Origin: Atriophallophorus winterbourni
Taxonomy: Eukaryota > Platyhelminthes > Trematoda > Plagiorchiida > Microphallidae
Reading direction: 5' to 3'
DNA: 64,000 nt
Assembly: GCA_013407085.1 (NCBI GenBank)
Contig: JACCGJ010002760.1
Coordinates: forward strand, 34,095 to 98,094
Shown: positions 1 to 62,610 of the stretch, one piece after another
Numbering within the stretch: position 1 is the first letter of the stretch
How the letters are laid out: every line of letters begins with the position of its first letter
The notes under the pieces: generated by a model
What the model was told of the DNA's origin: nothing
Database searches by the model: none
What the model saw: only the letters and a program-made list of their open reading frames with translations
Translations under genes and position numbers: made by a program

Positions 1-901
1 GACCAAAGTGTACGTCTCTAGATGATATGGTGAATTGAAAAATAAACATTTCGGTTGTTTTTTGATTTTATAATATGGTTGGTTGAAATTGTGGGAATTT
101 TTATTCCCGTGAAACTTATGATGTTTTTAGAAATTAAATTAAAAAAAATTAAAAAAGAAAAAAAAATTAAAACAGAAATAATGACCACCAAATATACCTT
201 TCATATCGGAGTAGAGTTTACAATTTATAAATTTTAATGAGCAATACTAGGCGTACGACTTTATTCTTAATTATCTACAACTGAATTGTATTTTAATATT
301 GACGCACCTTTGATCTTAATTATTTGCAACGGTAATCCGATATTCACGTTATCGGAGTTCTTACATTCATAATCTTCGACTTGCTTTGATTCAACGTTCG
401 TAAAAGTCATTGCATAAAAGTCTCGAACCACGGTCATCGTAGGAGTCCTTCGAAGGTGAAAACATGAAAATTATTTGGGGATAATATATAATATTTAAAA
501 TACATCATGCGAATAAGAATCATATGATTTACGTTAAATGTATGCTTACATTTACATGCGCTATTTTGATGTTTCGCAAAAGCGCTATAATGTTTTATTA
601 TCATCATTATTATTTTTATTTTTTGTGCATCATCAATTCGCCGGATCTGGTGCTTTTCAGAAAAATCTCGACAAACATTTTCGATTCCAAATGCGAGCAA
701 TCGTGAAGCTAATTTGATTTGCATGGAAATATGTTGAGAGCTTTTTGAATCCAATCGAGTAAACTACTTCATTGAAACAAAATTTACAAAAATCGGTTAA
801 ACACAAAAGTTTTGCTTTTCAGTGTGTGTGCGATGCAAATGAATAAAAATGAGCATTTCTGTTCATGATAGATCCTTCCAGGTCCGCGTAGGCGATACTA
901 C
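1..901. other. No gene recognised
   Basis: AT-rich sequence. A 106-codon minus-strand ORF (434-754) has no recognisable domain and low-complexity composition. If the Ig gene continues to the left, a further exon would be expected here, but none with an Ig motif was found. Confidence 0.5.
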
Positions 902-9249: not shown

Positions 9250-10050
9250 CTTAGAGTAATGCGCAGAAAACATATCGTCAGTAAAGATGTAGAAATCATT
9301 ATGAATATTTCATATACAATCATGAATCTTTGCATTGAAACGAAGTGAAAAATATCTCTATCAATCTTTATGCCGATATCTTCTATCGATATACATATAG
9401 ATGAAATCAAACTCTTTCATATATAACCCTTTTATCTGATAGGTAAGAAAAAGAGTGCAATGCAATGTTTTGCATGCCTAAATCATAAATGGTCAACCAT
9501 AAATGGTTGGCGCGAAACGGTACCTATTGAAACTTCCGGTAATAAGTGCTGACATAAACGTGATGTCTGCCACACTGCTTTTTAAAGAATTCTAAATATT
9601 ACAGAATCGGGAATTGTTCTCAGACCTAGGGTTTAAGAGTTTCAATCTGAGCGAACAGGTCCTTTTCGCAAAAAATTATTTGTTTGCATAACACTTATAC
9701 TAATACTTGAACAGACAATTGATATCATAGGGTGATCAATTCACGTGAAAAAATCCACTATCATTCGACATAGTTACCTATCAAGCGATGTATGCACACT
9801 TAATGACATAGCCGTATTCATTGTCATATACATGGGAGTGCGGATTAAATACTTTAATAATACTGAGGCAGAGAGCGTGAAACATGAAGTATTTTAGAGA
9901 AAGGTGATTTGTGCCTTGGCTAAGTTTAAAATTAAAATAAGATAAAATAATATATTTTCTAATCAATTCATATCTGATACAACGAAAATAATCACAGTCT
10001 AATCTAATGTTTACGTTCGAAATTCGATCCATTTTTACAAACTCATTTAC

Positions 10051-10212
10051 CATTTGGTGAGACGGCATAATAATATTGGGTTGCATCAACTGAGATTATT
10101 TTTCCGTTAATCTTCCATTGAATATCCAAGCCTGGGTTATCACTCTCCATCAAACAGCCGAGTGACACGTAAGCACCATAACCCAACGTTTTTGTGACCA
10201 CGGGGGACAGTG
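10051..10212 (-). CDS. Ig-domain exon
   Basis: Acceptor ttcgcgtag and donor AATG|GTAAAT; 162 nt, two bases in and one base out. It encodes the first half of an Ig domain: YVSLGCLMES, then LDIQWKINGK. It begins by completing a Thr codon with exon 10452-10660 and hands one G to exon 8951-9249. Confidence 0.83.
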
Positions 10213-10451
10213 CTACGCGAAAGAATACGGCAGAGATTATGAAGAGCATAAGGGGTTCTCAAAGAAAAAAATAAAGCTTTTCACGTAATATTAATTTGAC
10301 AACTATCATGTTTATATCCACTGAATCTCATTATTCATTTTTAAATCTATATATGCTGATATATAAACATTCTAATGCGTTTATTTTACTTTGTGATAAG
10401 CTAATAAACAATACAAATCAACGCACAAAACTGACACACTGTTTGACTCAC

Positions 10452-10660
10452 TAATATGCTTCAGGATGGTAGGGTTCGAAACTGCAGTGCCGAACGGGCC
10501 CCGAACTTTGCAGACGTACTCGCCAGCATCGGTTGTTGAATCAACGGAAATCGAATAGGTATACCTCGGGGGATTGAAAGGATCATCCCCAACAGTCGGT
10601 ATGATGGTACCGGATCTCGTCCGCGGCATGTCCTTCAGAGTCCACCATACCTCAAGTCCG
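10452..10660 (-). CDS. Ig-domain exon
   Basis: Acceptor ggttacag and consensus donor ATTA|GTGAGT; 209 nt, one base in and one base out. It encodes the C-strand tryptophan region (LEVWWTLKDM) and the F strand (TDAGEYVCKVRGPFG). The partner B-strand region comes from exon 10891-11059 and has no obvious cysteine. Confidence 0.8.
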
Positions 10661-10890
10661 CTGTAACCAGAAAAATGTAGACCCGAATAGTTACTCTTGT
10701 GTGAAGTGCTGGTAACTTAATTAAACATAATATTAAAATATGTCTACCATAATTTTGTTACTTTACTCACTATTTAATGAAGATAAATAAAGGGATGAAT
10801 GAAAGCTTTTGAATGTTACTTTCATGATTGACTGCTGTTTCGAATCTTTGCGAAATCATTCTTCGTTTTAACAAGTCAACACAAATTTAC

Positions 10891-11059
10891 CCGTGTGACA
10901 ATAACATGTTGTCTTGCGTTTTCTGCGAAAACGTCTCAACCAAGCTGATCTCGAAATTCGCTGTCCTTGAAGTAGGGAAGCTAAAATGCCATTTGATCGT
11001 AAAATAACGATTTATTTGGACCCGAAAGTTAGGGATCAATTTCACGAGCGCGAACGGTG
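10891..11059 (-). CDS. Probable Ig exon with unusual strands
   Basis: Donor CACACGG|GTAAAT ends with two bases (GG) that complete a Gly codon with exon 10452-10660. The likely acceptor is aataaaag, leaving two bases at the start. The frame reads ALVKLIPNFRV then RYFTIKWHF, which aligns with KLVVINN...NWNFKCEI in exon 8951-9249 but has Trp where the F-strand Cys should be. The following domain start (DNMLLSHG) lacks the B-strand Cys. A shorter form from an internal acceptor (cattttag, about 10,961) is also possible. Confidence 0.5.
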
Positions 11060-12101
11060 CTTTTATTAAACAGAGATTGGATAATTTATAGAATGTTACC
11101 AACTCATTTCGTGAACCGAGCTGCTTTTACTATCCACTTGAAAAATAATCAACCATTCGGGAGTTTTATTGCTTAGTGGTGCCTCCCAGCATCACTACAC
11201 GTTATGGTGAAAATTCATGGCATATAAGATTCTTGAGGTGCGTTGAAAATTTATTCTAATACAGATTAATATAGGTTGCCGATTTGGTTTTCTCATTGAC
11301 TTTCATGAATCGAAAGCTGATATTCACAACAAATGCTCACTCACCTACATTTTCCAAACATTGTTGTATCTTCCAATGATTCATCAAATTTGTAAGTATT
11401 TCTTTTAACGTTTCAATAAAAACAGATGCTATTTTCTGTTTCAATTGATGTACACTTTTCTGTGTTTCCAATTATACAGATTTTGCTCCGCCAGCCGGAA
11501 ATATTTCAAATAAACACAGACAGTACTTAAGTGGGAGTATCGTGCAAGCAGAAAGTCTGTTAAATGTCATCTATTTTGGTGTTGCTGTTAAATGAATATT
11601 CAATATGCCATAGATTTTAAAATAGAGTGCCCATGTCAATAGAATTGTATTACAATAACACTTGCTGCATCATCTTTGATATTTTTCTGAAATTTAGTGC
11701 TGTTAAAAAATGTCGTTCGCAGGAAATTTTATGGACGAAACACGATGTTGCGTTATCCTCTGCATATTCATAGTATATGTGAATGTGAGGCCAAGTAGAA
11801 TCGTCGCAACTCAATATAATAGGACATACATTACGCTCATAAAACTCACATTGTGGGATTTCAGAATTTCCCATAGCTATGTCACATTATGTAAGCTTGC
11901 TCACAATATCGAACCTAAATTCCGCGATTAGCTAGAAGCGCAGCAATGTCACGACCATGTATCAGAGTTAAATCACATAAATGGAACATATTTGATTCGA
12001 TCAGTTGGGGCTTAGTTTAGTCCCTTCAGCTACTTATAAAAGTAGCGAGTAGACGAGAACTTCGATTCGCATTGGACCATCCGTCTACACAAATACTAGT
12101 T

Positions 12102-12194
12102 CGAAACGCGAAGAGTCCAGCGAGTACGCATAGCTGATGAGAGGCAAAAACCTCAAAACCGGTCCTATGCTCCCAGTGAGATTCTAGCGTTTCG
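12102..12194 (+). ncRNA. Hammerhead ribozyme unit 1, G12 lost
   Basis: CTGATGA at 12134-12140, stem II GAGG/CCTC with CAAAAA loop, then AAAA where GAAA is required, then CCGGTC. Inner stem I GCATAG/CTATGC and outer stem I CGAAACGC/GCGTTTCG are kept, but the middle stem I pairing seen in unit 2 is gone. The G12-to-A change removes the general base, so it should not cleave. Confidence 0.8.
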
Positions 12195-12357
12195 GAATGG
12201 TATTCTACTTCGAACTATTCTGGGGTTGTGATAACCCTCGCGGCAATACGCCGTTCGATCAGTTGAAGCTTAGTTTAGTCCCTTCAGCCACTTATAAAGT
12301 AGCGAGTAGACGAGAACTTCCGTTCGCATTGCGCCATCCGTCTACACAAATACTAGT

Positions 12358-12452
12358 CCGAAACGCGAAGAGTCCAGCGGATACGCATAGCTGATGAGAG
12401 GCAAAAACCTCGAAACCGGTCCTGTGCTTCCGGTGAGATTCTAGCGTTTCGG
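12358..12452 (+). ncRNA. Hammerhead ribozyme unit 2, intact
   Basis: Outer stem I CCGAAACGC (12358-12366) pairs with GCGTTTCGG (12444-12452). Middle stem I CGGA (12378-12381) pairs with TCCG (12429-12432). Inner stem I GCATAG (12385-12390) pairs with CTGTGC (12422-12427). Core CTGATGA is at 12391-12397, stem II is GAGG/CCTC with a CAAAAA loop, GAAA follows, and stem III is the palindromic ACCGGT. Cleavage is predicted after C12421. The fold is the type I hammerhead of schistosome satellites and animal retrozymes; the loopless stem III implies action as a double hammerhead. Confidence 0.88.
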
Positions 12453-12616
12453 AATGGTATTCTACTCTGATCTATCCTGGGGTTGTAATCACCCTCGCGG
12501 CAATGCGCCGTTCGATCAGTTGGGGCTTAGTTTAGTCCCTTCAGCTACTTATAAAAGTAGCGAGTAGACGAGAACTTCGATTCGCATTGGACCATCCGTC
12601 TACACAAATACTAGTT

Positions 12617-12709
12617 CGAAACGCGAAGAGTCCAGCGAGTACGCATAGCTGATGAGAGGCAAAAACCTCAAAACCGGTCCTATGCTCCCAGTGAGATTCT
12701 AGCGTTTCG
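12617..12709 (+). ncRNA. Hammerhead ribozyme unit 3, G12 lost
   Basis: Repeat of unit 1 at +515 bp with the same AAAA in place of GAAA and the same stem I changes. Predicted inactive. Confidence 0.8.
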
Positions 12710-12872
12710 GAATGGTATTCTACTTCGAACTATTCTGGGGTTGTGATAACCCTCGCGGCAATACGCCGTTCGATCAGTTGAAGCTTAGTTTAGTCCCTTC
12801 AGCCACTTATAAAGTAGCGAGTAGACGAGAACTTCCGTTCGCATTGCGCCATCCGTCTACACAAATACTAGT

Positions 12873-12967
12873 CCGAAACGCGAAGAGTCCAGCGGATACG
12901 CATAGCTGATGAGAGGCAAAAACCTCGAAACCGGTCCTGTGCTTCCGGTGAGATTCTAGCGTTTCGG
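12873..12967 (+). ncRNA. Hammerhead ribozyme unit 4, intact
   Basis: Repeat of unit 2 at +515 bp with every core base and all stem I pairings kept. Predicted cleavage after C12936, exactly 515 nt from the unit 2 site. Confidence 0.88.
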
Positions 12968-13131
12968 AATGGTATTCTACTCTGATCTATCCTGGGGTTG
13001 TAATCACCCTCGCGGCAATGCGCCGTTGGATCAGTTGGGGCTTAGTTTAGTCCCTTCAGCTACTTATAAAAGTAGCGAGTAGACGAGAATTTCGATTCGC
13101 ATTGCACCATCCGTCTACACAAATACTAGTT

Positions 13132-13209
13132 CGAAACGCGGAGAGTCCAGCCTATACGCATAGCTGATGAGAGGCAAAAACCTCGAAACCGGTCCTGTGC
13201 TTCCGGAAT
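13132..13209 (+). ncRNA. Hammerhead ribozyme unit 5, core intact, 3' arm deleted
   Basis: CTGATGA at 13164-13170, GAGG/CCTC stem II and GAAACCGGTCCTGTGC are all present, but a deletion joins ttccgg directly to aatggtattc and removes the 3' strand of outer stem I. The 5' middle stem I (CGGA) has also changed. Weak or no cleavage is expected. Confidence 0.7.
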
Positions 13210-14234
13210 GGTATTCTACTTCGAACATATTTGCTGTCCGTTTTATATTAGTTCCTAACTTTCGAGTTTGGGTTTGTGCACGGTGATTGCCGGTGATCAA
13301 CTTGCACTAAGATTTCAATATATATATACGGAGGAAGATAATTATGCGATAACGGAAACCAACTTTCGTGAAGATCAACCATTAGAGGTAACTTGAAGCG
13401 CTCGATCAAGTTATTAGAAGAGATTTGTGCAAACACAACACGGATAATCAAAACGCTGACCAACCGCCATATATACTAACAGTCATACAAACATTTCACG
13501 ATTTGTTAGTGGACGACGCGCTAGCGACTTCCTCTAGACGCTTTCGAATCAACTGTCTCCAAACCCAGGTTCAACAAATTTACTCCAAATTTAAATGAAT
13601 ATTTTTTGATAAATATTGAAACAGTTTCCCGTTAAAAATTATCATCTTTTTTGCTATTGCTTTCAATGTTATGTATCGTGTTTCCCAACTTCCAGTAGGT
13701 CTGTAAAGAAATCCATCAGTAATACAAATGTAATATTCACATATATTTGAAATCGCTCTCTCAGTAGCTAATATTTACGTATCACTCGGGTCTTTTCAAT
13801 CGACCATACCGAAAGGTGTATACTTCATGCACTGTAATATTATTCCCGCAGCGACGTGTATACTTGTTGCATTATAATAACGGTAATATATAAAAGAATT
13901 CGTCCTTACGGAGTTAAAATCATGTAGTAATATCTGGAAACTTATGTTTAAGCGGTATAAATGCTTTTGTAAATTTCTTTGAGAGCTCGTTTCAATGGTT
14001 ATGCTATTTAGAAAGTTCACACCGGTTTAGAGCGACGCACTATCTTTAAATAGAGAACAGCCGTGCGAATCTCATTTTTCCAAAACCAGTGATTTGCCTC
14101 AATCATCTGTTTTCTCGAACTCTCAAATTGAAATGAGGCACGATTCCAATGATTATACTTTAGAGTTTAACTAAGTTTTGATAGTAATGCATCTGATCAT
14201 GATAATAAAATCAACTCATCAAAATATTTTTTAC

Positions 14235-14337
14235 TCTTTTGCAATATCTCCTGTGTACGAAAACGTGCACTCCATTGTTCCAGTATATTCAAACGAATAA
14301 ACTATTGGTGGATTGTAGAACGTTATTTCATAATTCT
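14235..14337 (-). CDS. Candidate upstream Ig exon
   Basis: A strong acceptor (tttctttaaattcacag) precedes a 103-nt open stretch reading ...VYSFEYTGTMECTFSYTG, which looks like an Ig B strand with its cysteine; the donor is AAGA|GTAAAA. It would end in phase 2, which does not fit the long form of exon 10891-11059, so at least one more exon or another acceptor is needed. Intergenic chance is a real alternative. Confidence 0.3.
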
Positions 14338-15733
14338 CTGTGAATTTAAAGAAACAAAATATTTACTCATTTATTCAGCTAAACCTTTTGATTTTTCGCT
14401 ATTTGAAAATCTCATATATTTTATAAAATATCGCATCGCAGTAAATATAGTATGAAATATCATCAGACGTAAACACAATAGCGACGATATCGATTGGAAT
14501 AAAATGTTATAACGAAAAGCTATTTTCGATAAAACAATGTAACGACGCAAGTGGGAAAAATTACTCTCGTTATCGACACGTTCTAAAACGAAAGAGGTGT
14601 ACTTTTATAAATTCTCAGAAGGAGCTTTAGTTTCGAGGAGAATTCATACAGCGGATAACACGGATGGTTCAATATTGTATCAATGATTCAATTGGGTGAT
14701 ATACAATGGGTGTATTGAGATAATTTCGGGCATTTTTTCATAAAACAGAGCTTTCCCTTTAAATTCACATGATGAAGTGGTCAACCAACAATATTTCTCA
14801 AAAACGATAAAAGAGAAAAATCGCATCAAGATGAATGCCATCACTATAGAGACAAAATTAATAGAAAAACTGCATACAAATTTTAGCATGTGGAAGTCAT
14901 GAGATGATTCGATCTCGTAAAATCTGTGACTCAAGCTAATATAATTAGTGCCTGCTCAGTAGTGTTACATGAAGTTCAACACGCAGTTTAGTAAGCATGA
15001 GTTAAACACATTTTTCAGGTTTTGTAGACATGCATTGCTCATTTGCTTTGCTTGTAATTTCATGTTAATCAGCGACAGCTGATTCCTAAAGTTCTTTCCG
15101 GGTTCGTCACACTAAATATCTATTACCTATTTGCAAGAGTGTAATGATTATGGTTACAATTTTTCCTTGACTTTCCCGGTTTGCGTTGGAGATCAGAGAA
15201 CTTATAAGTTTGCAAATTCGTTGCATTTGATATATATATATATATATAACTAGAAAAGAATATGAAAGATAATTAAAAATTCAATTTTCATAAGACCGCA
15301 GTCATATTTGCTGTGCTTCAGTGTAAGGGATTGTCGAGCAGTAAAGACATCAAGTTACGAAATGACCGATCTAGGATCCATGCATGTATTTTACAAACAA
15401 TACAAACGTGTACTATTTACATTTAGCTGTCTTGAAATTAACCACGATTACACACTTCATCTGGAACATGCATAGCGTGGGCTAAGTGAAAAATGGCTAA
15501 CAATATTGACTCAAAAGTTAGCTGATAGAAATTGACACCATGATAGGGAATATAATCGTGTTACCTAAGAAGCATGAAGCTCTGTACACGTACACCCTGA
15601 ATCAACCGACATAATGAGGAAAGAAAATGTTCTTTCAAAATAATACTAATCAGTATTTTATATTCATACAATCAACATATTTAATTGCTTCGCTGATAAT
15701 TTTCTTATTTGCCGGTCAAAACAATTTACTTAC

Positions 15734-16753: not shown

Positions 16754-19700
16754 ATTCAATTCAATTCAATTCAATTTTAATGGTCTAAAAAGCATATAGC
16801 TTTACAAAAACCACAGAAAATTATGGAAATTTACAAATAACATATCTCAGTAAAAACGAGATTTGTTTGCTTACTGAACAGTTCGGGAATCAGGTAAAAA
16901 TCCAAATGATAGAAACTGTTTTCACTCAGTGGAATGGCACATATATGTCCATGGGGTCGAGATGATTTGACGTGTGAGTTCAAAGTTATTAGGTTGTGGA
17001 ATACATAGTCTCAATGTTCGGATGGGTCGACAGGAATTTGTCTAAGCTGGATTTGAATATATCCAAGTTGGGTGCATGTGCAACATTCGAGGGTAGGGAG
17101 TTCCAAGTGAAACATACACGTACAGAATAAAAATATCTTCGACAGTTCAGTCGCGAGTCGGGAATTAGTACTGTGTACTCATGACTCCGGCTGGTTCTTG
17201 GTGGTTGTCGTGTGAATAGTGTATTAAGGGGATGGCTGGGGGTATGCAATATGTTAAACATTAGGATCAGATCACCTCTAAGACGTCGGTAAGGAGAGTC
17301 GAAGAGGTTGAGGTTTGCAATACGATCTTCGTATTGTTTGTGCTTTAAGCCGCACACGAGCTTCGTGGTCCGATGATAGATTCGCTGCAAGAGATTGATG
17401 TCTTTCTTTAACCAGGGTGACCAAGCCTGAACCGCATACTCCATGGTGGGCCTCAAGTAGGTATTAATTATTCGATGAACAGTCGGCTTCGTGAAACTCC
17501 CAAACACGCGTTTCAGCAGAAGCAGTACTTTTGACGTCTTTTCGTAGACAGCCTTAACGTTGTGTGACGGTTTCAACGTGCTGCTCACCCACACACCCAA
17601 GTCCTTCTCCTTGTCAGTTATTTCAAGAGTATGGGAACCAAGGGTGTAAGAGAACTCGAAGGGTTTTCCAACTGTCAATACCTTGCATTTTCTCACATTG
17701 AAAGGAAGTTCATTTCGAACCGACCATTCCTGTAAGACATTGAGGTCCAGCTGAAGCTGTCTGCAATCCTCAGTTGTGCGTACTTGTGTCCACAACTTGA
17801 TATCATCCGCAAATAGCAAGATTTTGCACCGAACAAGTTTTGGTAAATCGTTTACATAGAGCAAGAAAAGAATTGGTCCAAGCACCGATCCCTGCGGCAC
17901 TCCACTTGTTACTGTAATGGGCCGTGACAAAGCACCATCAACCCTTACTCGAATAACACGGTCACGGAGATAATCCTCCAACCAGGCTAGTAATGAGCCC
18001 TTGATGCCACATTGCTCTATTTTTTGTAGTAACAAACTGTGGTTAACACGATCGAATGCTTTGGACATATCCAGATAACAAGCATGTATGGTGAAACCTT
18101 TGTCCACAGCTTGTGTCCAGTCATCGAGGGCAAGGAGAAGGTTTGAAAGGCAAGAGTGTCTTTTTCTGAAGCCATGTTGTTCGATTGCGAGCAAGCAATT
18201 ATCTTCCAGGTGATTTGTGATGCTGTTTGCAACGAGGCGCTCCATCACTTTAGAGATCACCGGTAGTAGTGTTACTGGTCGATAATTGGATACTTCAGAA
18301 CGGTTCCCTCCTTTGTAGATGGGGGTAATGATACCAGTCTTCCATTCACAGGGAAAGAAACCTTGGGTTATAGAGAGGTTAAATAAGTAGGTAAGCGGTG
18401 TACACAAAGAATAGGCACAGCTTCTGAGGATCAGCGGGGTAATTTCATCAGCTCCAGGAGACTTTTTCGTGTTGAGCTTTAACAATGTACGGAGGACACT
18501 GTCCGAGCTAAAAGTTAGTTGCTGTAAAACGTTTTCTGGCGAGATCACGGAGGTCAAAGGACTGGTTACGGTGTTCGGTGGACTGAAGACAGTGGAGAAG
18601 AATTGGGCTAGAACTTCGGCTGATTGCGATGCTGTCGTTGTTATTCCATCACATGTCTTTAGGGCGGCAACCCCTGGTTTTACTCTAGACCGGTTATTTA
18701 TGATCTGATAGAGAATTTTTGGGTTTGATTCCATTTTGTCGAGTAAATGTTTTTGATAATTCAATTTGTCGTCAACAACAAGTTTGTTTACCTTATTTCT
18801 CAGCAAACGGAATGTTTCCCAACTTTCAGCAGTGCTATCAAGTCGGTGAGCCCGCCATGCAGCATTTCGCATAGTCAACCATTTCCGTGTTCGGCTTCTC
18901 AGTTTAAACGTGTATCCCCTTTTCCGCACCTTCGGAACAAAATGAGAGTGCATTTCAACTGCAATTTTAATTTCGTTTGCCATCCATTGCCACTGACCTT
19001 GTACGCTGTCGGACTCGAGACCAGGGTCTGTGACATTCTTCAGAGTAGTATTAAGTTGTGAAAAGTCAATTTTCCTAATCAACTTGCTGGTGTCACTTGT
19101 TCTGATTGCCTGACAAATATAATCAAACGTGATAACTAAGTGGTCACTGAGTCCCATAGGAGCTTCATAAGCGAGACTTTCAATCACGTACTCTTCGTTT
19201 GTCAGTATCAAGTCCAAGATAGACGGCGTATCACTACCCCGAAATCGGGTATTGTCAAAAATATGGTTGTAAAGTGGAATGTCCTCCAGCAACTGTTGAA
19301 ATAAAGCATTCAAGGAGTTTTCTGGATAGACTGAATTTCCCTTATAGTTCGGCAAATTGAAATCTCCGATCAGAAGAAGTCTGCCGCCGTATCTGGTAGC
19401 CGCTAAGCGTATGTTTGCAATTAATGCTGAATTGTAGGCTTCATCAGCGGAGGGCGAGCGGTAAATCACACCCACTGTACATTTTTCTTTTTCTGCTGTT
19501 ACATTCAGGGAACACCACAGTGTGTCTTGTAGTTGTAAGTCTTCATCAGTGATCTCATGGCATGACAAACTCTGAACGTGATATAGAGCAACACCGCCTC
19601 CTCGAGCCAGGCGATCGCGACGAAGTAGAGACATACCCTTAATGACCACTTCGTTGTCTGTTAAAGTTGGATGGAACCATGTCTCAGTTACGGCAATCAC

Positions 19701-19815
19701 GTCTGGTGAGTGTGTGGTAGTTAGTTCAGTCAATTCGTGTAATTTATTTGTCAAGCATTGGGCATTCGTATACAAAAATTTGTCATGTCTGCTCAGGAAA
19801 AATTTATGCTCTCAG
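16754..19815 (-). mobile_element. LINE family A copy, long open ORF2 and 3' tail
   Basis: Contains the 928-codon ORF2 described separately. The 3' end is a short tandem (TTGAA)n tail at 16,754-16,778, preceded by GACCATTAAAA and AAGCTATATGCTTTT, the same terminus as the plus-strand copy ending near 36,990. The open frame starts just after a TGA near 19,815 with no ATG, so the 5' end, including ORF1, appears truncated. Confidence 0.85.
16989..19775 (-). CDS. LINE ORF2: endonuclease and reverse transcriptase (CR1/Jockey group)
   Basis: Drives target-primed reverse transcription of the element. The N-terminal apurinic-type endonuclease shows VTETWFHP near residue 30, LLLIGDFNLP near 135 and LSDHLVITFDY near 208. 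The reverse transcriptase shows ITPIYKGG and SNYRPVTLLPVISKVMERL, QHGFRKRHSCLSNL, YLDMSKAFDRVNHS (domain A), SGVPQGSVLGPILFLLYVND and the catalytic FADDIKLW near residue 655. The C-terminus has FTWNSLPSNV. No frameshift or stop interrupts 928 codons. The listed start is a TTG; the frame is open about 13 codons further upstream. It may still be competent or only recently dead. Confidence 0.9.
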   Translation of the reverse strand: MYTNAQCLTNKLHELTELTTTHSPDVIAVTETWFHPTLTDNEVVIKGMSLLRRDRLARGGGVALYHVQSLSCHEITDEDLQLQDTLWCSLNVTAEKEKCTVGVIYRSPSADEAYNSALIANIRLAATRYGGRLLLIGDFNLPNYKGNSVYPENSLNALFQQLLEDIPLYNHIFDNTRFRGSDTPSILDLILTNEEYVIESLAYEAPMGLSDHLVITFDYICQAIRTSDTSKLIRKIDFSQLNTTLKNVTDPGLESDSVQGQWQWMANEIKIAVEMHSHFVPKVRKRGYTFKLRSRTRKWLTMRNAAWRAHRLDSTAESWETFRLLRNKVNKLVVDDKLNYQKHLLDKMESNPKILYQIINNRSRVKPGVAALKTCDGITTTASQSAEVLAQFFSTVFSPPNTVTSPLTSVISPENVLQQLTFSSDSVLRTLLKLNTKKSPGADEITPLILRSCAYSLCTPLTYLFNLSITQGFFPCEWKTGIITPIYKGGNRSEVSNYRPVTLLPVISKVMERLVANSITNHLEDNCLLAIEQHGFRKRHSCLSNLLLALDDWTQAVDKGFTIHACYLDMSKAFDRVNHSLLLQKIEQCGIKGSLLAWLEDYLRDRVIRVRVDGALSRPITVTSGVPQGSVLGPILFLLYVNDLPKLVRCKILLFADDIKLWTQVRTTEDCRQLQLDLNVLQEWSVRNELPFNVRKCKVLTVGKPFEFSYTLGSHTLEITDKEKDLGVWVSSTLKPSHNVKAVYEKTSKVLLLLKRVFGSFTKPTVHRIINTYLRPTMEYAVQAWSPWLKKDINLLQRIYHRTTKLVCGLKHKQYEDRIANLNLFDSPYRRLRGDLILMFNILHTPSHPLNTLFTRQPPRTSRSHEYTVLIPDSRLNCRRYFYSVRVCFTWNSLPSNVAHAPNLDIFKSSLDKFLSTHPNIETMYSTT

Positions 19816-32053: not shown

Positions 32054-32181
32054 TAATTTCGTTTTAAAGTCATGTAAGCTAGTGGCGTGAGCAACGGTTG
32101 AAGGCAAACTGTTTTACTTGGAACAGTTTACCTTCAACCGTTGCTCACGCCACTAGCTTGCATGACTTTAAAACGAAATTA
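32054..32181. repeat. Long fold-back, two 60-bp arms with 8-bp loop
   Basis: Arms 32,054-32,113 and 32,122-32,181 are near-perfect reverse complements (for example GTGGCGTGAGCAACGGTTGA against TCAACCGTTGCTCACGCCAC) around the loop ttacttgg. The right arm is LINE coding sequence (see next entry). Confidence 0.93.
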
Positions 32182-38609: not shown

Positions 38610-39942
38610 TTGGTGAGAACACCGGAATATGAAGTCAGATGGGTGAACCAGCGCATCTTCAACATTCGTTGCAAGCAGCGCGGCGTAATAACAGGGGATC
38701 CGGTGGTAATACATCCGGATAATTCTCGCAAATGGACAAAGGCGGCAGCCAGCTCATCCAAAGTGTTTTTGAAACAAATGATCCACCGGGTCAATGAAAC
38801 GCTATTGGCCGCTAGATCGAAAGCCTCGAGAATGATGCCGAAACCGCGAGTTGAATTATCCGAAGCGGATTTCTGCAGAATATGTGGAAAACACGCGGAG
38901 GTTTTAGCCACACAAACGGAGCGAATAGGCGAAAGACAAAACCGTAAGTACAACAAGTTATTTGAGTTTTATAATAAACGTTCTTCAGTTAAATCTAATA
39001 AGTCGTCATCTAACAACCAGCAATTTAGTGCTTTGACTAACGGTATGGTAACGGTAATTTTGAACTAAAGCGACTATTTAGACAAGGTTGGGGTACACTT
39101 ATCCGAAGGCCCTTATGAACGGATAGATAATGCTAAAATGATAAGGGTAATAAATAACAGCAAAACGGTAGTCTATAAGTATTTGCGTGGCGTTTAGGAT
39201 AGTTTGGGAAAGGGCTTGTGGTATAAACTGTATCCCAAGTCGACTCTAACTCCTAGGTTCTACGGCCTACCTAAAATACATAAAGGCATTCCAGCAACCA
39301 GAAATTTAGTGCTTTGAGTAACGGTAAAGTAACGGTAACTTCGAAAAAAGCAACCATTTAGACAAGGTTGAAGTACACTTATCCGAAGGCGCTTATGCAC
39401 GGATAGATAATGGTAAAATGAAAAGGGTAATGAATAACAGCAAAACGGTAGTCTCTAGCAATTTGCCTGGCGTTAGGTAGAGTTTGGAAAAGGGCTTGTG
39501 GTATAACCTGTATCGCAAGTCTACTCTAAATCTTAGGTTCTACGGCCTACCTAAAATACAAAAAGGCATTCTAGCAACCAGCAATTTAGTGCTTTGAGTA
39601 ACGGTAATTTTGAACAAAAGCGACTATTTAGACAAGGTTGGGGTACACTTATCCGAGGGCCATTATGAACGGACAGATAACGGTAAAATGAAAAGGGTAA
39701 TGAATAACTGCAAAACGGTAGTCTCTAGGTATTTGCGTGGCGTTAAGGAGAGTTTGGGAAAGGGCTTGTGGTATAACCTGCATCCCAAGTATACTCTAAA
39801 TACTAGGTTCTACGGCCTACCTAAAATACATAAAAGCAACCCTGTAAGAACTATCGTCGACGGTATCCGATCACCTGCGCAGGAGTTAGCTAGACATTTG
39901 GTTTATTTGTTCAAACCTTTAGTCGGTTATACAGCGTTATAA
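38610..39942 (+). pseudogene. Penelope-like element copy 1, with triplicated segment
   Basis: A 5' frame (38,610-39,068) with FCRICGKHAEV and a basic stretch leads into VTVILN at 39,050 and a Penelope reverse transcriptase start: DYLDKVGVHLSEG, then GLWY, RFYGLPKIHK. This roughly 280-bp segment occurs three times (aatttag marks at 39,022, 39,303 and 39,583). Only the third copy stays open (39,610-39,942) and reaches TIVDGIRSPAQELARHL and FKPLVG. The remainder of the reverse transcriptase and any GIY-YIG domain are missing. Confidence 0.75.
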
Positions 39943-55699: not shown

Positions 55700-57520
55700 C
55701 TTAATCAAAAGCCTTACTAAAGTCGAGATAGAAGTCTTCTACAGCTATACCATCATCCATCCTCTTAGTAACCTCGTTAAGAAAGCTCAACAAATTTGTC
55801 AGACATGACCTACCTTTTAGGAAGCCGTGTTGTGCGCCATTCAAAAGAGAGTGTTTGGTTAGATATCCACATATTTTATCGCGGATCAATCTTTCCATAA
55901 CCTTACATAGTACACTAATGAGGCTAACCGGGCGGTAATTATTGACCGCCGAGGAAGCTCCTCCCTTATGGATAGGTACTACAACGGCTGTTCTCCAGTC
56001 TAAAGGAAGGGTGCCCTGACTGAGGGATGATGTGAAAAGTTATGTGACCGGCACAGCTAATATAGGCGCTAGCAGTCTGATCATTTGTGGATGGATGCTA
56101 TCGGGGCCTGCCGACTTGTTGTAAGCTAGGCTGGCCAATATATTCTCAACAATGTGTACCTCGAATGTAAGGTCAGTGCAGAGGGGGCGATCAGAGAGTA
56201 CACATTGAAGTGATGGCGCAGATGCATCCGAGTTATAATCTCGGCGTTGTGCGCCTTGAAAATGCGAGGAAAACAATTGAGCCTTTTCAGTGCTTGCAAT
56301 GACGGCTGATCCATCGTCCCTTCTCAGGGTACCTACACCTTTTCGTGTTGACCCTTTAGATTGAACGTAGCTGTAGTAACGTTTCAGATGAGTATCGGCC
56401 TCTTGAGCGAGTCTCATTTCGAAAGAAATCTTTGCTGCACGTATCTTGGAGACAGCTATGTTTCGCGCTTCTTTGTAACGGGCCCAAGTCCCACATGAGG
56501 GAGTAAGCTTATAACGCCTCCATTTTGCGTCGCGGTGACGTACGCTACGGGAAACTGAGGCTGACCACCATTGAGGTTTACCTTTTTTGCGAACGGGTAA
56601 GAGAGGAGCGAATCGATCCAGAAGTTGAAGGATGTTTTTCTTGATCTGCCCCCACATCCCATCCACATGGTTAATGTTTTGCCATGGGAGTAGCGCTGCT
56701 GCCTGTAATAGGGAAGCAGGGTCGATCCTATGGAAGCGTCGAGACATCTTAAGTGGGGGTTTACCAAATGACTGAAGTAACTCGCAGGCTAACACTAAGT
56801 GGTCGCTCTTTCCTAGTGGTGGCAGTAAGACCAAATTTTGTATACCGCTTTCAGAAGTTGAAATAACTAGGTCAAGAATAGACGGAGACTGACCCTCTCG
56901 GAATCTAGTTGGTTCGTTTACGTGTTGGTAAAGTGCATGTGAGTGTAGCCAGTCCAGAAAATCGTTCGCGATTCCTGGAGCATGTGAGGTTTGGTACTCC
57001 CAGTTTATTTCAGGTAGATTAAAATCTCCGAAGATTACAACACGTGGTGCTACGGCTAAAAGAGACGACCGCTTAATTTGCAAAAGAGCATCTTCTTCCA
57101 AACTAGTGCTCGGACTACGGTAGACGCAGCTTACAACGATACGCGTGCATCCATGCATGAGCAAGGCAGATATTATCTGAACATTCGTTGTAGAAAAAGA
57201 AATACTTTTCTCGAAGGGAATAGCGTTATCAATAAGGAGCAACGCCCCTCCTGCTAGCTTACCCAGGGGTCGATCGCTTCTTACGGCGCTAAACCTATCC
57301 GCGATTAAAGCTGGTATGTGGTCATCATGAGACAACCATGATTCCGTGACACCCACAATTTTGTAGTGGTTGTCATCAACTCTACAGAGGAGTTCAGCCC
57401 ATTTATTTCTAATGCTACAAGCGTTTGTATAGAACAGAAGAGCACTATCATATGGGGCCAGACTCCCGGTGTTAGGGCTACCTATGAGCTCTTTGTCCTC
57501 GGGCGTAATGCCCGAGGCTG
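55700..57520 (-). pseudogene. LINE family B ORF2, N-terminal part, one stop
   Basis: Open from about 57,520 (FYTNACSIRNKWAELL) through GVTESWLS, VVIFGDFNLPEINW near 57,020 and LGKSDHLVLACELL near 56,800, then FHRIDPASLL, RHRDAKWRRYKL and SAGPDSIHPQMIRL. A single TAA at 56,040-56,042 interrupts; the same frame then continues VVPIHKGG, NNYRPVSLISVLCKVMERLI, AQHGFLKGRSCLTNLLSFLN and FYLDFSKAFD to the S1 insertion. The FADD box is missing. Confidence 0.85.
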
Positions 57521-57522
57521 CT

Positions 57523-58230
57523 TCGCGTTTTTTGAAGGCTGAATTTCATCACTTGGTATTTGTCAAAAAAGGCAAACCTAAGGCTTGCTACGAACGTTTC
57601 GTGTACAACAAAAAGGAAACCAGCAAGAGTGACCCCACTGTTGATTATTATGTGTGTGAACGAAAGCGAAAAGACCACTGTTCCGGGCGACTCCATCTCC
57701 GTGGAAATACAGTCTTGAAGTCATCAGAGCACAACCATGCCCCCGACGCGTGTCGCCAGAATGTTCTGAAGGTAGTTGATTCCATCAAAAGACAAGCGTC
57801 TACAACAGAATAAACCACAATGATGATCATTGCCAGTCAGTGTACAGGCGTTTCTGAAGTCACAGCAGCTTCTTTGCCAACAGAACGGGCACTTAAGAGA
57901 CAAATACAAAGAACGCGAAACCGCAATGGTCGGGTCCCACCACTGCCTGCAAGTCTGGAAGATCTGAATATTCCTGATGACTACAAGACCTTTGATGATG
58001 GAGAGCTCTTTCTTCTGCACGACTCTGGACCTGGCTCACAGCGCATTCTGATTTTCTCAACCCACGAAAATCTGATGATATTGTCTGAAAGTCAACACTG
58101 GTTTGCCGATGGAACATTTAAAGTGGCGCCCAGCTTATTCCATCAATTGTACACAATACACTGTTGCTGCCAAGGACTCATGATGCCGGTGGTGTTTTCA
58201 CTGCTGCCGGGAAAAACAACGGCAGTATAG
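57523..58230 (+). pseudogene. MULE-type transposase with FLYWCH zinc finger, one stop, 3' truncated
   Basis: A DNA-transposon transposase. The FLYWCH finger lies at the N-terminus: FHHLVFVKKGKP, then YYVCERKRKDHC and SSEHNHAP (Cys-Cys-His-His ligands). After TAA at 57,811-57,813 the same frame continues with LKRQIQRTRNRNGR, LFLLHDSGPGSQRILIFST and the transposase core start HWFADGTFKVAPSLFHQLYT, then MPVVFSLLPGKT. WFADGTFKV carries the first catalytic Asp of MULE enzymes. Sequence stops at an S2 repeat at 58,231, so the rest of the DDE domain is lost. Confidence 0.85.
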
Positions 58231-59046: not shown

Positions 59047-61800
59047 TTAATCTTCACGGTCTAAACCCTGCTTGAAAGTTGAGACGGAACTACAGGAGAT
59101 AAGTTCTTCAGGGAGCTTGTTCCAGAAGTTGACCACCCTGAAGCTGAAAAAGTTTTTCCTAGAATCTAGTCGACATCGTTCCTTAGCGAGCTTGAGTGCG
59201 TGTCCGCGAGTGCCCAGCTTAGGACTTAAGGTAAAGATGTCATCTGGATTAACGCCGCTTAAGCCCTTTAAGATCTTTAAGGTTTCAATCAAATCACCTC
59301 TCAAACGACGACGCTTAAGAGAGAAAAGACCCAGAGCCCAAAGGCGATCAGCATAACTTTTCCCACGCTGACCCTCAATCATGCGTGTTGCTAGTCGCTG
59401 GACGCTTTCAAGTCGAATGATATCCTTCTGGTAGTGAGGACACCACGCCTGGACACAATATTCCAAATGCGGCCTGACTAACGCCTTGTAAAGTGGCAGG
59501 AACACGTCAGGACTTCTGCTGGAAATCACCGACTTCAACCGAAAGAGCACATTGCGTGCACGTTGCGCTGCAACAGCGCATTGGTCCTCCCATTTGAAGT
59601 CAGCTCTAACTAGAACACCCAAGTCCTTAACCCGCTGTGTGGCATCAACGCTAATAGGAGTACCTGACACCTGGACTGTGATCTTGTCGACCAGAGCAGA
59701 CAAGAGTTGGCACTTATTGAGGTTCAGTGGGAGGTCCCAAAGTATGGACCAGTCAATGACCCGCTCGAGGTCGTGCAACAGAGTATCTTCATTCGTTGAA
59801 CCAATGAACTTCACGTCATCCGCAAAAATGAAGCACGGGCACTCCAAGATAGGCGACAAGTCATCGATAAAAATCAGAAAGAGCAGCGGACCTAGCACAG
59901 ACCCCTGAGGCACCCCACTTATCACCTCCGTTTGGATCGACAACGTAGATTCTACTCGTACTCTAAAGGTCCTACCTGTCAGGAATGATTTTATCCAAGC
60001 AAGTAAACTACCCCGTATGCCTTTTGCTGCCAGCTTAGTTTCTAAAAATCGGTGGCTGACGGAATCGAAAGCCTTGCTAAAATCTAGGTAGAGCGCTTCG
60101 ACCGGCTTCCCTTCATCCAACCTTTTCGTAGCAATATTGAGGAAACTCAAGAGGTTAGTCAAACAAGACCTCCCTTTCAGGAATCCATGTTGAGCTACAC
60201 TAAGTAGAGAATGCTGGCAGAGATGCTGGCAGATTTTGTCGCGTATAAGTCTTTCCAATACTTTCGAGACGATGCTGGTCAGGCTGACTGGTCTATAGTT
60301 ACCAAGAATCGACCTGCAACCACCTTTGTGTATTGGTACTACTATGGCTTCTTTCCACTCACGAGGAACCATTGCCGAGTGCAAACATGAATTGAAGAGC
60401 TCACATAGTGGTTCTGCAAGCACTGGGGCGAGATTTCTCAACATAATTGAGTGGATGTGATCCGGACCCTCAGCCTTGTTAGCACGAACATGAATAAGAG
60501 CTCCATACACCTCCGCCTCATTAAAGGACAAATCATCTAGTGCAGGGACACCAGATGGAAAGTTAAGCAACTCAGGCGGTGTGAGTAAAGAATTATCCCT
60601 ACGCTGAACGCTACTGAAAAACTTTGAGAAGGCTGCCGCCTTAGCTAGGTCACTAGTAGCTAATTGTCCATCCTCCAGTTTTAAGTCACCGATGTTTACC
60701 CTAGTTTTTCCTTTAGATTGCGCGTAACTGTAAAACCTTTTCGGGTTGGATTTAGCATCCCTGGCTAAGGATAACTCAAACTTCTGTTTGAGCACACGCT
60801 GCATTTTGACACAAGCGTTTCGGGCGGTTCTGTAACGGACCCACGAACCAGAGGTGAGCGATAGCCTATATTGCCTCCATAAGCGATCACGTTTACGAAT
60901 AGAACGACGAACGCTGGGAGACCACCAGGGTGGCCGCTGGTGCTTATTCACGCATTGCAGTGGAGCATGCAGGTCTTGTAGCCCGTTAAGAAATCTGCAA
61001 ATTCTGTCCCAGTTTTCAGTTACACTAGAATCACTCGAGAACAGAAGGTAAGATTTTGATGACTGTAAAAGTAGGCCCCAGTCAACACGCCTAAAATTAC
61101 GTCTAGGGCGCGCAAGAGGTTTGTGAAAACGCAACAGCGCTTCGAAGCCTAACATTACGTGGTCGCTTTTGCCAAGAGGGGGTAGGAACTTGACATTCTT
61201 GACAGCTTCTAGCTGAGACGACAGCATCAAGTCAAGAGTGGATGGAGTGCATCCATCGCGGAACCTAGTGGGTTTGTTCACGTGCTGATGTAATCCATGA
61301 TAGTGGATCCAATCGAGAAAAGATGCGGATTGCTCAGTGAGTACCCCTGAGGGAGCTGACCAGTCTATATCTGGGAGATTAAAATCACCTAGAATGATTA
61401 CGCTTGGGGCTGATTGAAACAACCCGTCAAGCATCTCAAGCAGTTGACTAATTTCTCGCAGGGTTGCACAGGGCGTGACGTAAACACAAGCAATCGCCAG
61501 TGCTGACTTGTAGCAAGTCAGGACACTACTAACAACTTGGACATTTTCAATAGCGAGTGATAACCCTGGACCCGTATTGTGCAGACCATATTCAAGGAAA
61601 AGTGCCACGCCTCCGCCTCTTCTATCGCCAGGTCTATCGCATCTGATGACAAGATACTGTTTGCTGATGCTAGCTTGCAAAACATCAACCGCAGACAGCC
61701 AGGTTTCAGACAGCGCTATAACCCTCGGGTGTAGCTCAGCTACACGAAGAGAAAGTTCAGACCACTTATTTCTTATGCTGCACACATTAGCGTACAACAC
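59047..61800 (-). CDS. LINE family B ORF2: endonuclease and reverse transcriptase (CR1-like)
   Basis: 917 codons without interruption. Endonuclease: LYANVCSIRNKWSEL, ALSETWLSAVD, RRGGGVALFLEYGL, VIILGDFNLPDIDW near residue 135, LGKSDHVMLGFEAL near 211. Reverse transcriptase: AIVVPIHKGG, LGNYRPVSLTSIVSKVLERL, AQHGFLKGRSCLTNLLSFLN, LYLDFSKAFDSVSH, SGVPQGSVLGPLLFLIFIDD and the catalytic FADDVKF near 657. C-terminus: RPHLEYCVQAWCPHYQKD, then FRVVNFWNKLPEEL. All expected motifs are present, so the protein could be functional. The start shown is a TTG; the frame stays open upstream and overlaps the end of ORF1. Confidence 0.92.
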   Translation of the reverse strand: MLYANVCSIRNKWSELSLRVAELHPRVIALSETWLSAVDVLQASISKQYLVIRCDRPGDRRGGGVALFLEYGLHNTGPGLSLAIENVQVVSSVLTCYKSALAIACVYVTPCATLREISQLLEMLDGLFQSAPSVIILGDFNLPDIDWSAPSGVLTEQSASFLDWIHYHGLHQHVNKPTRFRDGCTPSTLDLMLSSQLEAVKNVKFLPPLGKSDHVMLGFEALLRFHKPLARPRRNFRRVDWGLLLQSSKSYLLFSSDSSVTENWDRICRFLNGLQDLHAPLQCVNKHQRPPWWSPSVRRSIRKRDRLWRQYRLSLTSGSWVRYRTARNACVKMQRVLKQKFELSLARDAKSNPKRFYSYAQSKGKTRVNIGDLKLEDGQLATSDLAKAAAFSKFFSSVQRRDNSLLTPPELLNFPSGVPALDDLSFNEAEVYGALIHVRANKAEGPDHIHSIMLRNLAPVLAEPLCELFNSCLHSAMVPREWKEAIVVPIHKGGCRSILGNYRPVSLTSIVSKVLERLIRDKICQHLCQHSLLSVAQHGFLKGRSCLTNLLSFLNIATKRLDEGKPVEALYLDFSKAFDSVSHRFLETKLAAKGIRGSLLAWIKSFLTGRTFRVRVESTLSIQTEVISGVPQGSVLGPLLFLIFIDDLSPILECPCFIFADDVKFIGSTNEDTLLHDLERVIDWSILWDLPLNLNKCQLLSALVDKITVQVSGTPISVDATQRVKDLGVLVRADFKWEDQCAVAAQRARNVLFRLKSVISSRSPDVFLPLYKALVRPHLEYCVQAWCPHYQKDIIRLESVQRLATRMIEGQRGKSYADRLWALGLFSLKRRRLRGDLIETLKILKGLSGVNPDDIFTLSPKLGTRGHALKLAKERCRLDSRKNFFSFRVVNFWNKLPEELISCSSVSTFKQGLDRED

Positions 61801-61823
61801 AGTGGCACTGGATATGCGCGCTT

Positions 61824-62507
61824 CTAAGCTGAGTCGTGCTTTGCCCTCGGTCGAATCACCCGGGGAAGCTGCACGTTTTTTGGCGTACTGCTTAATGCAG
61901 GAGAAGCAATATCGCGTGCATCTTGCACGACGGTAATGGAACGTTGCCTAACTATTAAGCCCTCATTTATAACATGGGAGCTGCCACTAGAAAGGCTTGA
62001 CGGACTTACTACGCCATTCAAGCTAATGGAGCGTTGCCTGACTATTGAGCCCTTATTAATAACATGGGAGCTGCCACTAGAAAGGCTTGACTGGCTTCCT
62101 TTTTCATTCACGCTAAGCAGATCGTCGTGCGCACCTGATAGCAAGATCATAGGTGATGCACGCACCGGTACGATCGTTGTTGATGCAGTAGCGATCGGCT
62201 TCGCATCAGGCTGAAGGGGAGCGGATAACCCTACAGCTAAGTTAATCCCAGTCGGAGCTACAGTGAACTGCCTCCTATCAAAAAGAGGGTTATCAGGCTT
62301 CACTTGGAGTTTTTCTAAAGTGGCGTTAGTTATGTGTTCCGCCTTAGACAAAAACACATCGCGATCCGCCTGGAATTTGAACTCGACTAGGATCGGTCGA
62401 GGCCGGTTGTCCATCTTCCATCTACCCACACGATGAACTCGCACCGTGAGAGTGGAAGGCTTCATCCCAACCATGCGAAAGTGATCGTGGATACACCTGC
62501 GGTCCAA
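61824..62507 (-). pseudogene. LINE family B ORF1, C-terminal part
   Basis: Reads STLTVRVHRVGRWKMDNRPR, PILVEFKFQADRDVFLSKA, a pattern resembling the RNA-binding region of CR1-type ORF1 proteins, then a low-complexity Ser-rich tail. The tail contains a 90-bp in-frame duplication (61,934-62,023 and 62,024 onward; SSLSSGSSHVIN twice). A TAA at 62,526-62,528 lies just upstream in the same frame. Confidence 0.75.
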
Positions 62508-62610
62508 ATCTCTACGAGATTTGGATTATTTGATGAAGGGCTCGGTACGATCGAAAACTAGAACATTACGAGTTCTATTTTTACGAGCCGAAGATGGGCC
62601 ATGTAATGAT

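Follow-up and report, generated by a model that had tools for sequence, protein, structure and literature searches.

Tandem type I hammerhead ribozymes with alternating intact and G12A cores in a candidate retrozyme insertion of a flatworm genome

The closest described systems are the animal non-LTR (long terminal repeat) retrozymes, in which type I hammerhead units are arranged in tandem and LTR, primer-binding site (PBS) and polypurine tract (PPT) are lacking (PMC7229834). Where present, their target-site duplications exceed 4 bp. RNA circles were shown in coral, mussel and axolotl, RtcB circularizes animal retrozyme RNAs in vitro, and similar repeats are stated for platyhelminths (PMC7229834). 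In schistosomes, the Sm-alpha and W repeats carry hammerheads of which some are active in vitro and some core-mutated (PMC8490949; PMC2770079), and both kinds are found among the W elements of Schistosoma mansoni (PMC8490949). The present study concerns a 1.23-kb hammerhead array at positions 11995-13222 (+) of a 64,000-nucleotide stretch, hereafter the window, of the trematode Atriophallophorus winterbourni (contig JACCGJ010002760.1, positions 34,095 to 98,094). The best reading places this element in the known group of retrozymes that Cervera and de la Pena reported in 2020 (PMC7229834). It is probably a non-LTR retrozyme, non-autonomous and non-coding, present here as one insertion in the flatworm genome, and a candidate source of RNA circles.

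Tandem Repeats Finder delineates a head-to-tail array at 11996-13206 with a period of 257, the copies starting 257, 258, 257 and 258 nucleotides apart. An earlier examination of the letters without database searches (the sequence-only reading) had proposed five units of 258/257 bp at 11998-13225. The period stands, whereas the bounds are now set at 11995-13222 and only four units are complete, the fifth being truncated. The layout is as follows.

11995-13222 (+): retrozyme-like element, four complete units and a truncated fifth (Tandem Repeats Finder, repeats, boundary comparison)
11996-12252 (+): unit 1, type A, 257 bp, identical to unit 3 (unit alignment, as for the units below)
12253-12510 (+): unit 2, type B, 258 bp, identical to unit 4
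12511-12767 (+): unit 3, type A, 257 bp
12768-13025 (+): unit 4, type B, 258 bp
13026-13222 (+): unit 5, truncated, with a 19-nt internal gap

Units 1 and 3 are equal at 257/257 positions and units 2 and 4 at 258/258, whereas 21 substitutions separate unit 1 from unit 2, which share 235 of 256 aligned positions and thus differ at 8%. Therefore, the exactly repeated period of the array as assembled, in the order A B A B A', is the 515-bp pair. Unit 5 agrees with unit 1 at 198 of 207 aligned positions and with unit 2 at 190 of 206 (both comparisons extend to 13233 and include the right direct repeat described below). It lacks the final 41 nt of the unit, and its internal gap deletes the outer 3' strand of stem I. 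The GC content is 0.482 in the array against 0.353 in the flanks (0.471 and 0.500 in the units). No open reading frame (ORF) of at least 120 aa lies within the element, and with units A and B as blastn queries (E 0.1) the array itself is the only match in the window, no further copy being found. No longer repeat bracketing the element was found in 10000-15000, where no search was aimed at a PBS or PPT.

A type I hammerhead in each unit had also been proposed from the letters. Rfam was searched at curated thresholds and then by E-value. In the latter mode, Hammerhead_HH9 (RF02275) matches all five units on the + strand, with E-values of 4.5e-7 to 2.7e-9, and the whole-window search returns these five matches. 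The motif is thus recovered in every unit by E-value; none of the scores (36.0, 42.0, 36.0, 42.0 and 42.9 bits for units 1 to 5) reaches the curated gathering score of 52. The alignment lacks five helix III loop letters, and the stem I internal-loop UAC and the loop II CAAAAA fit the HH9 consensus. A strict descriptor finds five motifs on the + strand (three with G12 and two with A12) and none on the - strand, whereas 200 first-order Markov surrogates of the 64-kb window yield two matches altogether. The complete type I core, CUGANGA...GAAA...UH with stems I, II and III and an open stem I, is present in units 2, 4 and 5, so that the proposal of a hammerhead per unit fails for the intact core in units 1 and 3, where G12 is A.

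12101-12195 (+): unit 1 hammerhead with long stem I; core 12134-12164; predicted site after 12164
12358-12452 (+): unit 2 hammerhead; intact core 12391-12421; predicted cut after 12421
12616-12710 (+): unit 3 hammerhead; core 12649-12679; predicted site after 12679
12873-12967 (+): unit 4 hammerhead; intact core 12906-12936; predicted cut after 12936
13146-13217 (+): unit 5 hammerhead (span of the Rfam match); intact core 13164-13194; predicted cut after 13194

The GAGG/CCTC stem II, the ACCGGT stem III and the multi-part stem I noticed in the letters are all found in unit 2, and the fold of its 95-nt motif (12,358-12,452) reaches -46.1 kcal/mol (z -6.93), 0 of 200 shuffles being as good. Stem I had been counted as 9+4+6 pairs in the even units; the hammerhead-constrained fold instead gives 9+8+4+6 there, versus 9+6+2+6 in the odd units. 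It is fully paired in units 2 and 4. The stem I of type A is weaker, the optimum folds being -34.3 kcal/mol for type A versus -47.2 kcal/mol for type B.

The alternation of intact and G12A cores is the unusual point of this element. G12 is the general base of the hammerhead. It is replaced by A at 12155 in unit 1 and at 12670 in unit 3, where the core reads CTCAAAACC; these two units have CUCAAAACC where units 2, 4 and 5 have CUCGAAACC. According to excerpts of PMC2553840, G12A slows cleavage 100,000-fold and about 10^6-fold, and more than 500-fold in a minimal hammerhead. In PMC3088659, any core mutation, G12 included, disqualifies a hammerhead candidate. With a damaged catalytic base in two copies out of five, the array may work in pairs rather than in single units. 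In this respect, the array differs from the metazoan retrozymes as described in the excerpts of PMC7229834. Alternating intact and G12A units are unmentioned in the titles and abstract openings listed for hammerhead satellites, flukes and platyhelminth retrozymes, as they are for newt and axolotl satellites in the excerpts of PMC7229834 and PMC6155905. In the cave cricket satellite pDo500, G12 was mutated in only one sequence (PMC2837043).

The ends of the array are marked by an exact 11-mer.

11984-11994 (unstranded): left flanking direct repeat GAACATATTTG, putative target-site duplication (boundary comparison)
13223-13233 (unstranded): right flanking direct repeat GAACATATTTG (boundary comparison)

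A single extra A (11995) separates the left repeat from unit 1. A word of at least 11 letters is common to 0.1% of 4000 randomly drawn pairs of similarly long window stretches, and one of at least 8 letters to 1.4%. Because GAAC also occupies this place in type A units, the first four letters of the right repeat could also belong to unit 5, and only 7 of the 11 bp of the duplication are certain. Since the 11-bp direct repeat stands on both sides, the array is marked as one insertion. With 11 bp, or 7 bp counted strictly, the putative duplication is longer than 4 bp, as are those of metazoan non-LTR retrozymes where present; duplicated sequences at the presumed target site were likewise seen for one W25.2 element of schistosomes (PMC8490949). 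The flanking direct repeat, the truncation of unit 5, the 515-bp exact period and G12A in two of five units are points to which the sequence-only reading did not extend.

The likeness to the metazoan non-LTR retrozymes described in PMC7229834 extends to the short tandem units (within 150-450 bp), each with one type I hammerhead, on the + strand only, and, within the scope of the repeat and ORF searches above, to the lack of an LTR and of an ORF of at least 120 aa. The GC content of 0.48 agrees with the value below 50% given in the text of that paper but lies above the value below 45% given in the legend of its Figure 1C. Circular RNA was shown for those retrozymes and would be predicted for the element described here. 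The schistosome Sm-alpha and W repeats are, like this array, flatworm tandem repeats with type I hammerheads (PMC8490949; PMC2770079). The unit measures 335 bp in W36.2_W001 as compared with 257/258 here.

How would such ribozymes cut? Within one unit, stem III pairs only as A-U, and between units it pairs fully. Because ACCGGU cannot close as the hairpin stem of one unit and gives six pairs between two, the hammerheads would be expected to act as dimers. Fold energies, which as computed omit tertiary contacts and transcription order, were obtained for spans running from one ribozyme to the next. The double hammerhead is the unconstrained optimum for U1-U2 (-122.7), U2-U3 (-137.4) and U3-U4 (-122.7), that is for three of the four neighbor pairs. 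In these optima, it is 7.0-7.6 kcal/mol better than two single hammerheads, all 18 inter-unit pairs are present, all 20 scored core bases are unpaired, and the mean pair probability of stem III is 0.75-0.76. The optimum of U1-U3, in which both cores have A12, is likewise a double hammerhead. Thus, the earlier suggestion of a loopless stem III acting in dimers agrees with the folds of U1-U2, U2-U3 and U3-U4 and disagrees with those of U4-U5, U2-U4 and the whole array, considered below. Folded as circles, the 258-nt unit (z -5.48, 100 shuffles) and the 515-nt pair (z -6.28, 40 shuffles) are both better than their shuffles.

Newt and axolotl satellite hammerheads also have a weak palindromic stem III, in units of about 330-350 bp versus 257/258 bp here, and are reported to cut well only as dimers (PMC7229834; PMC6155905). 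Helix III of the present element is of this weak kind reported for amphibians, unlike most invertebrate retrozyme motifs, which form a stable helix III (excerpts of PMC7761336). A double hammerhead with cleavage in trans was also proposed for the pDo500 satellite of cave crickets of the genus Dolichopoda (PMC2837043). There, stem III is formed within the unit and stems I and II between units, whereas here stems I and III would be inter-unit and stem II intra-unit.

In a double hammerhead, the core of one unit would act on the site of the other. Within an A-B pair, the B core would then cut the A site and the A12 core would fail on the B site, whereas single hammerheads would cut the B sites. 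Either mode alone would give a 515-nt product (12165-12679, or 12422-12936) and both modes together 257/258-nt products. Self-cleavage of an array transcript is predicted, and the proposal that the tandem hammerheads may give rise to RNA circles of one or two units is partly supported by the covariance-model matches, the modeled two-unit folds and the published animal retrozymes. Because intact and G12A cores are paired here by nature, a direct test is possible of whether hammerheads with a loopless stem III act on their own site or on the neighboring one, the two models predicting different cut sites on one natural transcript.

In the retrozyme reading that we favor, a + strand transcript would be cut by hammerheads acting largely as inter-unit dimers. 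The circle would be copied into multimeric cDNA by the borrowed reverse transcriptase of a Penelope-like element or a LINE (long interspersed nuclear element), and this cDNA would be inserted with duplication of the target site. The known animal retrozymes would thereby gain a flatworm member whose insertion ends are clear. Beyond this, type B with its intact G12 might be the catalyst and type A be kept as substrate, a 515-nt heterodimeric circle being released and propagated. In type A, a perfectly paired inner stem I strand CUAUGC replaces CUGUGC, and A-specific sites are concentrated in the hammerhead region (counts and caveats below). We consider this extension distinctly improbable. If true, it would amount to a division of labor in which only the A site is cut in the A-B double hammerhead and half of the sites are silenced, which might protect the circle from re-opening.

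Several results weigh against the retrozyme reading. There is no Rfam match at gathering level in the window. When a unit is folded alone, C3-U4-G5 are paired in the optimum with letters of stem III, and the hammerhead fold lacking stem III is 2.6-3.5 kcal/mol less favorable. For U4-U5 the double hammerhead reaches -123.8 versus -127.7 for the optimum, and for U2-U4 -235.0 versus -235.3, with 0 of its 18 pairs in the optimum in both cases. The fold of the whole array has no inter-unit stem III of measurable probability, and its cores are partly paired. Finally, unit 5 differs from units 1 and 3, and rolling of one 515-nt circle therefore does not explain the array alone.

Comparison with unit 5 sorts the variable sites: 5 are specific to A, 10 to B (one being a 1-nt gap) and 4 to unit 5, one site differs in all three sequences, and 8 A/B differences fall in the gap of unit 5. 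A-specific sites lie in the hammerhead region (phase 106-201) in 4 of 5 cases versus 1 of 10 for B-specific sites (Fisher p 0.017, for one locus chosen after the fact and with a unit 5 that may be mosaic). Either the type A ribozyme decayed or unit 5 would be a mosaic. As judged from the unit alignments, a recent local duplication of A-B within a putative A-B-A' does explain the array.

This history is also that of the nearest competitor, according to which the array is a decayed retrozyme insertion that unequal exchange at the locus later converted from A-B-A' to A-B-A-B-A', and which is transcriptionally silent, with no circles made. The identical 515-bp pairs beside a different unit 5 fit local duplication, unit 5 is truncated and has an internal gap, two of five units have lost G12, and core-mutated copies are inactive in W elements of S. 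mansoni (PMC8490949). However, three cores are intact and stem I is fully paired in units 2 and 4; the former retrozyme identity is not in dispute, only the present activity. We regard this remnant as unlikely, while giving it more weight than any other competitor.

The remaining explanations concern the identity of the element. An Sm-alpha-type, SINE-like element (short interspersed nuclear element) would be transcribed by RNA polymerase III (Pol III) from internal boxes, its hammerhead merely trimming the transcript without forming circles. Sm-alpha and Sj-alpha are indeed SINE-like and hammerhead-bearing, and many Sm-alpha copies resemble tRNA-Gln (PMC2770079). Scored against an A-box and B-box consensus, box-like letters reach 14 (unit 1) and 15 (unit 5), as found in 2.5% and 0.2% of 1000 surrogates, respectively. 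However, such a pair is absent from unit 2, no tRNA-like gene is predicted by ARAGORN, and the absence of TTTT in a unit is unremarkable (P 0.33-0.47 on shuffles). The letters of units 1 and 5 being suggestive and unit 2 having none, a Pol III promoter is not claimed, and this origin appears improbable. Highly improbable is a fragment of a Penelope-like element (PLE) whose pseudo-LTRs carry minimal hammerheads. As here, PLE motifs are tandem type I hammerheads in which helix III is slight or lacking (PMC7761336; PMC11167929), and may cut as dimers (PMC7761336). They are minimal (PMC7761336; PMC6155905) and, according to these excerpts, have no tertiary contacts, whereas the present motifs have a long stem I and loop letters that fit the HH9 consensus. 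PLEs encode a reverse transcriptase and a GIY-YIG endonuclease; the element has no ORF of at least 120 aa, and Pfam scans of 10 of the 30 ORFs listed for the window revealed no GIY-YIG domain. A PLE origin is therefore disfavored. For one PLE in vitro, hammerhead cleavage was not needed for insertion (PMC11167929). As for chance resemblance in an ordinary satellite, the scores do fall short of the Rfam gathering score, but the E-values and the rarity of the descriptor in the surrogates lead us to reject it, its probability being negligible.

Public collections, in scans that may exclude records of the window's own genome, were also searched for the core. The exact 21-mer of core and stem II has 0 matches in viral_contigs. 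A looser core pattern gives 37 stretches in viral_contigs and at least 117 in genome_contigs; among the matches listed, 1 of 154 loci (L008) passes the full G12 descriptor. This locus, viral contig IMGVR_UViG_3300037485_002668, carries the motif at 54-82 (-) and has no Rfam match at gathering level. These pattern matches are treated as background.

Elsewhere in the window, a second tandem array at 39014-39838 consists of 3.0 copies of a 280-bp unit with 87% identity (Tandem Repeats Finder) and has no Rfam match at E up to 1. Two uninterrupted LINE proteins of 940 and 966 aa, at 16989-19811 (-) and 59047-61947 (-), both carry endonuclease and reverse transcriptase domains (Pfam, within the 10 scanned ORFs). 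Either could be a mobilizing enzyme; nothing here links them to the array. The first has its best match in Paragonimus westermani (63% identical, 93% of the query covered), with Dicrocoelium dendriticum among the lower ones (39-44%), and matches of the second include Dicrocoelium (37%), sea turtles (36-37%) and Sparganum proliferum (38%). By these matches a flatworm host is likely, and probably a digenean. A long hairpin at 32070-32166, possibly an inverted-repeat element, matches the unrelated microRNA families MIR1507 (47.7 of 73 bits) and mir-335 (38.2 of 64) on opposite strands, both below cut-off. A FLYWCH zinc finger domain (PF04500) at 57433-57813 (+) stands beside an ORF at 57814-58230 without Pfam match, and the region 57433-58230 looks like a broken transposase gene. 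Finally, upstream of the second LINE protein, the open frame 61824-62525 (-) contains a direct duplication of 90 bp at 61930-62116 (2.1 copies, 84% match).
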